From positions 1 to 64,000 of the forward strand of contig NZ_JANZXN010000030.1 in assembly GCF_025629245.1 (NCBI RefSeq): a stretch of DNA of 64,000 nt. Direction: 5' to 3'. Position numbers and translations under genes: made by a program. Each line of letters begins with the position of its first letter. Within the stretch, counting starts at the first letter, position 1. The notes under the pieces were generated by a model, which ran no database searches, had not been told where the DNA came from, and was given only the letters and a program-made list of their open reading frames with translations. This DNA is from Natronobiforma cellulositropha (lineage in GTDB: Archaea; Halobacteriota; Halobacteria; Halobacteriales; Natrialbaceae). Of the stretch, positions 13,698 to 52,047 are shown one piece after another.

Positions 13698-14030
13698 GGT
13701 GGTGTTCAGTGTAGCACGACCTGCCGATCCGTTGGCCGCGAACGCCAAGAAAGCCTCCGACGCTCTCGAGGACTGCGCTTGGCGAGACGCAGGCGTCTCG
13801 CTGGCCTTCGCTCGTTTCACTCGCGAAGAACTCGCTGTCGTTCGAGAGAGCGTTGCTCTCTCGTGACTGAGCGAATCGGGGATTCGCGAGGTCCGCGAAA
13901 CCGACGGTTTCGCTCGATGACGAACGACGCACCACGTCTTTCGAACGACCTCGCACCTCGAGAGCGTCGCCCCTTTCAGTCCCACCCAGCGTCGGCTGGT
14001 CGGCTGGTTTTCGCCTACCTAAACACGGCC
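13698..14030. mobile_element. Structured MITE-like element, copy A
   Basis: This 333-bp non-coding block has related inverted ends: GGTGGTGTTCAG at 13698-13709 and, reverse-complemented, GGCCGTGTTTAG from 14030-14019. Inside, GACGCTCTCGAGG (13759-13771) pairs perfectly with CCTCGAGAGCGTC (13956-13968). That 13-bp stem encloses five hairpins, at 13782-13801, 13806-13828, 13843-13863 (9-bp stem, GTT loop), 13871-13887 and 13895-13913. A tail follows with CCCCTTT, TCCCACCC and TTTTCGCCTACCTAAACAC that closely matches copy B at 51 kb. No matching flanking duplication was found, so this copy may be older. No protein frame looks real here. Confidence 0.7.
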
Positions 14031-50902: not shown

Positions 50903-50969
50903 AGATAGCTGGTTTTTCCTATGTCATTCTCTGCACCTATGTGGTAAAAAAGGTACCGGTAGTACCACA

Positions 50970-51229
50970 GGTCGTGTTTAGTTTGGTAATGGGCCTGATT
51001 CGCCAGTGGAGAAAAACCATAAAGCCCCGCTGCCATCGAGGGCTGCGACTCGCTACGATCCTCGGACTTCGTCCTGCGGTTCTTGCGTCGTGGTTGGAGA
51101 GACCGTAGGTCTCTCCTCATCACGAAACGGCGCACCGTTTCGAACGATCTCGCTCCTCGATGGCGGCGCCCCTTTTAATCCCACCCGGTTGCGGTTGTCT
51201 GGTCAGTTTTCGCCTAACTAAACACCACC
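50970..51229. mobile_element. Structured MITE-like element, copy B, with 8-bp target duplication
   Basis: This 260-bp element has 16-bp ends: GGTCGTGTTTAGTTTG at 50970-50985 and, read from the other end, GGTGGTGTTTAGTTAG (51229-51214), 14 of 16 identical. It is flanked by perfect direct repeats GTACCACA at 50962-50969 and 51230-51237. Inside, GCCATCGAG (51032-51040) pairs with CTCGATGGC (51156-51164) around hairpins at 51064-51074, 51096-51116 (9-bp stem, GTA loop) and 51123-51142. The right 60 bases match copy A. It carries no protein gene. It appears to have been moved by a transposase in trans. Beyond 51237 the sequence to 51399 holds only the CRISPR-like repeat and the asd promoter region. 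Confidence 0.78.
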
Positions 51230-51299
51230 GTACCACAAATGTGAGTCTATGACCGACAACGCACCTATTATTCTTGGGCATGATCGAAGACAACTCCGG

Positions 51300-51336
51300 G
51301 TTGCAACGCACCGAAAACCCAGAACGGGATTGAAAC
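51300..51336 (+). repeat. Solitary CRISPR-type repeat unit
   Basis: A 37-base sequence begins GTTGCAACGCACC and ends ACGGGATTGAAAC. These are the 5' and 3' signatures of a well-known CRISPR repeat class (GTTGCAAC...GGGATTGAAAC, 37 nt), and ACCC/CGGG can pair in the middle. Only one convincing copy exists here, so it is not an array. A weak match of the same length at 51370-51406 would leave a 33-base gap but includes the asd start codon. Confidence 0.55.
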
Positions 51337-51399: not shown

Positions 51400-52047
51400 A
51401 TGAAAGTCGCCCCTGGGGCGTGGCGCTACGCCCTGCCCGCGCTGCTGGCCGCACCGTTCGCGTTCATCTTCTCGACGGCGGTGAGCGTGCTCACACTCCT
51501 CGCGGGGCTCTCGGTCTTAGCGTTCTTTCGCGACCCGGAGCGGACGCCACCGCCGACGGGTGTCGTCTCGGCCGCCGATGGCTCCGTCTCCGTGGTCCGC
51601 GAGGAGGGCGAGCGCGTCCGCCTCGGCGTCTTCATGAACGTCTGGCACGTCCACGTGATCCGCGCGCCGCGGGCGGGCGTCGTCCGCGAGGTCGAACACA
51701 CCCCTGGTGCGCACAAACCGGCGTTCTCGAAGGATTCCGACCGCAACGAGCGCGTCCGGGTCCGCCTCGAGTGTCGGGCCACAGCCTCAGGTGAAGAACC
51801 AGAAAGCGACGACGAAGAGTGGGAGGTGACGTTCATCGCGGGCGCGTTCGCCCGGCGCATCCACCCCTACGTCGAGCCCGGTGACGAACTCGAGCGCGGC
51901 GAACGGATCGGGCACATCGCCTTCGGCAGCCGTGTCGACGTGACCTTCCCGCCGTCGGTCGAACGCGAGCAGCTCGCCGTCGCGAAGGGGGAGAAGACGA
52001 CCGCCGGGGAGACGGTGATCCTCGAGTCGGAGCCGCTCGAGGCGTAG
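51400..52047 (+). CDS. asd: Phosphatidylserine/archaetidylserine decarboxylase
   Basis: The 215-residue protein has an N-terminal membrane region (ALPALLAAPFAFIFSTAVSV and VLTLLAGLSVLAFFRDPERT). The decarboxylase core has FMNVWHVHVIRAPRAGVV and the self-cleavage site in IAFGSRVDVTFP, where the Ser becomes the pyruvoyl group. It converts archaetidylserine to archaetidylethanolamine in the membrane. The short archaeal form lacks the long N-terminal region of bacterial enzymes. It has a central acidic insert (SGEEPESDDEEWE). It is a core gene at the edge of the accessory island. Confidence 0.93.
   Translation: MKVAPGAWRYALPALLAAPFAFIFSTAVSVLTLLAGLSVLAFFRDPERTPPPTGVVSAADGSVSVVREEGERVRLGVFMNVWHVHVIRAPRAGVVREVEHTPGAHKPAFSKDSDRNERVRVRLECRATASGEEPESDDEEWEVTFIAGAFARRIHPYVEPGDELERGERIGHIAFGSRVDVTFPPSVEREQLAVAKGEKTTAGETVILESEPLEA

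Follow-up and report, generated by a model that had tools for sequence, protein, structure and literature searches.

The locus examined here is a short block with inverted ends whose interior folds like an RNA, and it raises the question of what kind of element this is and whether its interior is an expressed RNA. It lies in a 64,000-nucleotide stretch of Natronobiforma cellulositropha DNA on contig C24, referred to here as the window. The reading in which we place good confidence is that non-coding mobile DNA is nested here at three levels, namely a MITE, a hairpin repeat (m1) inside the MITE, and a two-hairpin module inside m1.

Anatomy and copies of the element

The features of the window that bear on this question are the following.

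50962 to 50969, no strand: left target-site duplication, GTACCACA
50970 to 51229, plus strand: IS6-type MITE of 260 bp, one copy among 13 complete ones in the 3.76-Mb draft genome
50970 to 50986, plus strand: left terminal inverted repeat, GGTCGTGTTTAGTTTGG
51021 to 51175, plus strand: m1, a haloarchaeal hairpin repeat with AAAG/CTTT outer pairs, a symmetric CCC/CCC internal loop and conserved inner words
51028 to 51041 with 51155 to 51168: variable but paired stem of m1
51091 to 51147, plus strand: two-hairpin module of 57 bp, TGGTT-hairpin-TCATCA-hairpin-AACGA, inside m1 between TTGCGTCG and TCTCGC
51096 to 51116, plus strand: first hairpin of the module, GGAGAGACC-GTA-GGTCTCTCC
51123 to 51142, plus strand: second hairpin of the module, CGAAACGG-CGCA-CCGTTTCG
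51213 to 51229, minus strand: right terminal inverted repeat, GGTGGTGTTTAGTTAGG when reverse-complemented
51230 to 51237, no strand: right target-site duplication, GTACCACA
13698 to 14030, plus strand: second, older MITE copy of 333 bp with decayed ends and no recognisable duplication

The preliminary description of this locus had proposed a non-coding MITE with a perfect 8-bp target duplication, 16-bp inverted ends matching at 14 of 16 positions, and nested hairpins, and this anatomy stands. GTACCACA is present at both flanks as a perfect duplication, and the inverted ends extend to 17 bp with 15 of 17 positions matching. The coding frames are limited to short, overlapping ones, for example one of 71 amino acids. 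The closing arms at 51021 to 51041 and 51155 to 51175 are 81% complementary over 21 nt, and the fold of the 260-nt plus strand was stronger than all 200 of 200 shuffles (z of -6.1), with a z of -5.7 for the minus strand. The neighbors are an 82-amino-acid reverse frame without an assigned family on one side and a phosphatidylserine-decarboxylase-like gene at 51400 on the other. At 51300 to 51336, 62 bp beyond the right duplication, lies one CRISPR-like direct repeat, which Rfam CRISPR-DR56 matches with 35.6 bits (cut-off 35), and no second copy of it was found in the whole genome at up to three mismatches.

Searching the genome with 14 bp of the end and up to two mismatches gave 43 matches, compared to 8 with the reversed pattern, and pairing of the ends yielded the 13 complete copies, which fall into size classes of 107, 122, 204 to 206, 252 to 264, and 333 bp. 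The target duplication matches at 8 of 8 positions in five of the 13 (the window copy, C34, C56, C57, and C60), at 7 of 8 in another five (C55, C22, C23, C2, and C26a, the last with a 1-bp shift), and at 6 of 8 in C45a; C45b and C24b have none. With equal base use assumed, a flank match of at least 7 of 8 has a chance of 0.0004 per site. The preliminary description had left room for a block fixed at one locus; the element is instead dispersed, and 8-bp duplications surround most of its other copies. One further copy of this genome with decayed ends (C26, positions 66760 to 67050; stretch L003) lies outside the 13 counted, and at 1440 to 1600 of that stretch two modules form one larger palindrome around CCTCGGACTTCGTCCTGCGG. 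The 24-base right end gave no matches in the collection of genome contigs. No copy of the element was found in phages, and plasmids gave two partial matches.

The size classes arise mainly from the interior. The 333-bp copy at 13698 to 14030 has a bigger interior with additional hairpins, and a hairpin, TGACTGAGCGAATCGG..GATTCGCGAGGTC, is common to this copy and C56. Four m1-holding copies in this genome are without the 57-bp module, and four 107-bp copies have no hairpin at all, with AAAG joined to CCCCACCC across a short direct repeat. Since these hairpin-less copies have target duplications (8 of 8 in one and 7 of 8 in three), m1 is probably a passenger and the hairpin interior dispensable for transposition of the MITE, although each of the 107-bp copies may have inserted with a hairpin and lost it later.

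An IS6-family parent type

Of 125 genomes of the family, 51 contain exact MITE ends, and the reversed control gave zero matches. Five convergent end pairs spaced 697 bp apart were found in family genomes, and a sixth 697-bp element is present in L117. The ends of this insertion sequence are GGTCGTGTTTAGTT, and the right end in L110, GGTCGTGTTTAGTTAGG, is one base off the right end of the MITE. Duplications of 8 of 8 flank the 697-bp elements at four of six loci, with 2 of 8 and 0 of 8 at the other two. The 217-amino-acid protein of the L110 element is an IS6 transposase (NF033587, scoring 179 bits where the cut-off is 125; Pfam DDE_Tnp_IS240). Because this IS6-family element of the relatives matches the MITE in its ends and likewise has 8-bp duplications, we assign the window element to the IS6-type MITEs: it shares its ends with an IS6 element, duplicates 8 bp, contains no transposase gene, and is present in multiple copies. 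A search of this assembly for an intact IS6 parent came back empty; the closest protein match, a degraded relative of 40% identity, is on C58, and the genome has two further, weaker matches. Contig C60 ends 123 bp after an end of the 697-bp type, where a frame beginning MSMSKISRFTG starts.

The preliminary description had ascribed mobility to a transposase, acting in trans, that makes 8-bp duplications, and it was right about the transposase, whose type is the IS6 family. Judged from sequence, the IS6-family transposase would move the MITE in trans, duplicating 8 bp of the target. A 206-bp IS6-ended MITE that holds m1 within a perfect CGTCGCGT duplication is present in a different family (L043). 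IS6 elements are known to duplicate 8 bp of target, and the sections of PMC7986276 consulted mention two MITEs of this family, one of 227 bp and one of 336 bp, so that the MITE belongs to an already known type and is itself ordinary. Indeed, it resembles the IS6-family MITEs described there and in ISfinder in its gene-less insertion sequence ends, 8-bp duplications, GG tips, and similar size. It differs from those in PMC7986276, as far as they are described there, in an interior with a nested, order-wide hairpin repeat.

The m1 repeat and its nested module

Stripped of its ends, the MITE is m1, which begins with AAAGCCCC and ends with GCCCCTTT. With one mismatch allowed, 194 of 293 genomes of the order contain the right arm of m1, GCCCCTTTCARTCCCACC, whereas the reversed pattern matched once in the whole set. 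Matches per genome range from 0 to 143 (the maximum in G133). Among 90 m1-like intervals from the retrieved loci, some of them overlapping or tandem, 83 have no IS6-like end pair within 75 bp. m1 mostly occurs without IS6 ends and is a dispersed repeat independent of the MITE; it is probably mobile in its own right. Several copies are arranged head to head, and several, a tendency that is unquantified, lie by gene ends or in short intergenic gaps. The stem arms of m1 differ in sequence among seven MITE copies of this genome and retain complementarity at 11 to 14 of 14 positions.

Variants of the repeat were also observed. At positions 1 to 640 of L210 (G074 C1), six tandem m1 left arms spaced by 56 bp are followed by a complete m1 and then by several GTGGTCTGCGTCACCG-like repeats. 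An alternative interior of about 111 to 116 nt, with GATAT or CATAT...ATAG and GACGACCA words, occupies the m1 shell in L200 to L216 (G041, G074, G058, G166, and G156); this second interior type was present in 12 of the 60 hairpins used for the wobble counts described below.

The module is 55 to 67 bp long, left G included, and has 7-bp imperfect inverted ends, TGGTTCG...CGAACGA (TGGTTCG/TCGTTCG). A strict two-hairpin pattern was matched in 147 of the 293 genomes, with zero matches for the reversed control. All 80 named records listed with the module, among 119 stretches, are haloarchaea, including two from Haloquadratum (L225 and L250), and viral contigs gave no matches. Within m1, the module sits at TTGCGTCG^TCTCGC, and m1 copies empty of the module exist. 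Other m1 copies carry the module elsewhere and inverted, at CTCGCTG^CGCTCC, with identical boundaries. Outside m1, it splits a palindrome, CCTCGGGGTCAAG^CCCCGAGG, of which the empty form was found in 93 of 195 genomes. All five frames tested beside this palindrome, at four filled sites and one empty site, matched the TnpB-type TNB domain, the five having been preselected by a TnpB-like motif. In the short stretch scanned, 11 of 18 palindrome loci had no TnpB-like frame, and an empty copy in L341 is flanked by other genes. In L174, L172, L194, and L034, the module sits in the palindrome by tnpB frames and may be within a guide-RNA region.

Sixty stretches were picked from the 147-genome pattern search regardless of context, and their 62 strict matches divide into 17 in m1, 4 in the palindrome, and 41 elsewhere, the last including a near-match palindrome in L141. 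In a sample of 136 sites, the base to the right of the insert was C in 127 and sometimes T; the G to the left was set by the search pattern. Simple hairpin loops contained 12 of the 136 sites (8.8%), compared to 373 of 13,596 control positions (2.7%; Fisher P of 0.0004), and in these 12 the junction was exactly at the stem-loop boundary in 10 and one base away in 2. With just 12 of 136 sites, simple hairpin loops were rejected as a general target of the module. Module sites show no target duplication, and precise empty versions of the sites exist.

The distribution of the module and its exact ends are matters of observation; how it moves is put here conditionally. It would enter with a G on its left and a C (sometimes T) on its right and leave the target unduplicated, using several sites in m1 and the palindrome that adjoins tnpB genes of IS605/IS1341-type elements. 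A single old insertion, copied along with m1, could explain why many families have the module at one m1 site. A broader proposal, possible but in our view somewhat doubtful, is that the module is an order-wide minimal mobile DNA of about 60 bp, with no duplication, a G^C target, and loop-stem junctions in hairpins, that an unrecognised mechanism acting on single strands moves it, and that its stems evolve via whole-hairpin conversion, inheriting structure and not sequence.

Alternative readings and known systems

The preliminary description had suggested that the interior could be an expressed RNA, and a structured non-coding RNA whose fold is under selection would account for the strong fold, the conserved loop words, and the covariation of the m1 and module stems. 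Stem positions paired in 568 of 600 cases in m1, compared to 51% when partners were re-dealt, and in 99% in the module, compared to 60 to 66%; the hairpin sets were preselected for pairing (7 of 9 or 9 of 14), which inflates the percentages and should leave the comparison of GT with AC unbiased. The m1 wobble set comprised those hairpins, 60 out of 80, that have a AAAGCCCC start and a GCCCCTTT end, with stems cut at two consecutive mismatches. Selection on one RNA strand would be expected to raise GU above AC on that strand. However, wobble pairs were GT/TG in 8 and AC/CA in 10 cases in m1, and 3 and 1 in the module, giving 11 versus 11 between the strands when both repeats are taken together, on small counts. 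The equally strong fold of both strands and the missing strand bias leave an expressed RNA unsupported. In addition, no Rfam family matched the interior (the significant match was the CRISPR repeat outside the element, the others sub-threshold miRNA matches), copies without the interior bear target duplications, and modules occupy several places in m1. An RNA of this element is thus very unlikely, and the interior is better described as a hairpin repeat in its own right, spread across the order and itself enclosing a second repeat. We infer that the stems are kept paired at the DNA level and not by selection on a single RNA strand. Template switching, in which one hairpin arm is corrected from the other at the DNA level, or an exchange of whole hairpins would produce this turnover; 7 stem words are common to both hairpin positions of the module, out of 17 and 14. 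More generally, paired stems with sequence turnover and no strand bias caution against taking covariation in dispersed palindromes as proof of RNA.

Two further readings dispense with a mobile module. If copies lacking the module or m1 were deletion derivatives of a single ancestral complex hairpin, with no insertion, the deletion-like junction of AAAG with CCCCACCC in the 107-bp copies and the m1 site at which several families alike carry the module would be expected; we consider this improbable, given that an identical-ended module occurs at different m1 sites and in opposite orientation, and also in tnpB-linked palindromes, which are common in their empty form. Alternatively, m1 and its modules might be selected, immobile DNA that functions like REP or BIME sequences, as 3'-end or nucleoid-protein sites, in keeping with the high copy number, the head-to-head pairs, and the unquantified proximity of several copies to gene ends or short intergenic gaps. 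This is unlikely, although less so than the deletion reading, in light of m1 lying within IS6-ended MITEs of two families and of the wide spread of match numbers among genomes of the order. The nest of MITE, m1, and module remains the reading we prefer.

The literature searched, in which most subscription journals lay outside the scope, gave no description of m1 or the module. As described in the parts consulted of PMC2817692 and PMC3116915, REP and BIME sequences resemble m1 as high-copy hairpins, often in inverted pairs, whereas m1 is longer, with a conserved CCC/CCC loop and nested insertions. The text seen of PMC13155455, PMC3733652, and PMC12306157 makes no mention of haloarchaea. m1 is also comparable to the palindrome-associated elements (PATEs) in the portion of PMC3119063 consulted, which are likewise non-coding palindromic haloarchaeal repeats and targets of smaller repeats. 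However, any tie of m1 to IS605 ends is putative at most, and the window element, unlike PATEs, has true inverted ends and is flanked by a target duplication.

Greater significance lies with the nested module than with the MITE. Its closest described kind is SMR-A, the small mobile repeats of Haloquadratum walsbyi, which are about 110 bp long and whose mobilisation was called enigmatic (PMC3119063, in the portion consulted); in the haloarchaeal literature searched, the phrase "small mobile repeats" appeared in that paper alone. The likeness is by description and not by the HqIRS42, HqIRS43, and HqIRS55 sequences. Both are non-coding with inverted ends and no target duplication, both enter near-terminal palindromes of IS605-type elements, and neither has a known mobiliser. 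The module differs in length (55 to 67 bp versus about 110 bp), in its two hairpins with interchangeable stems, in its order-wide occurrence, and in having m1 as a further target. It thus shares most of what defines SMR-A, and because half of the sampled haloarchaeal genomes provide exact ends, empty sites, and a target preference for it, what moves it becomes a directly testable question.
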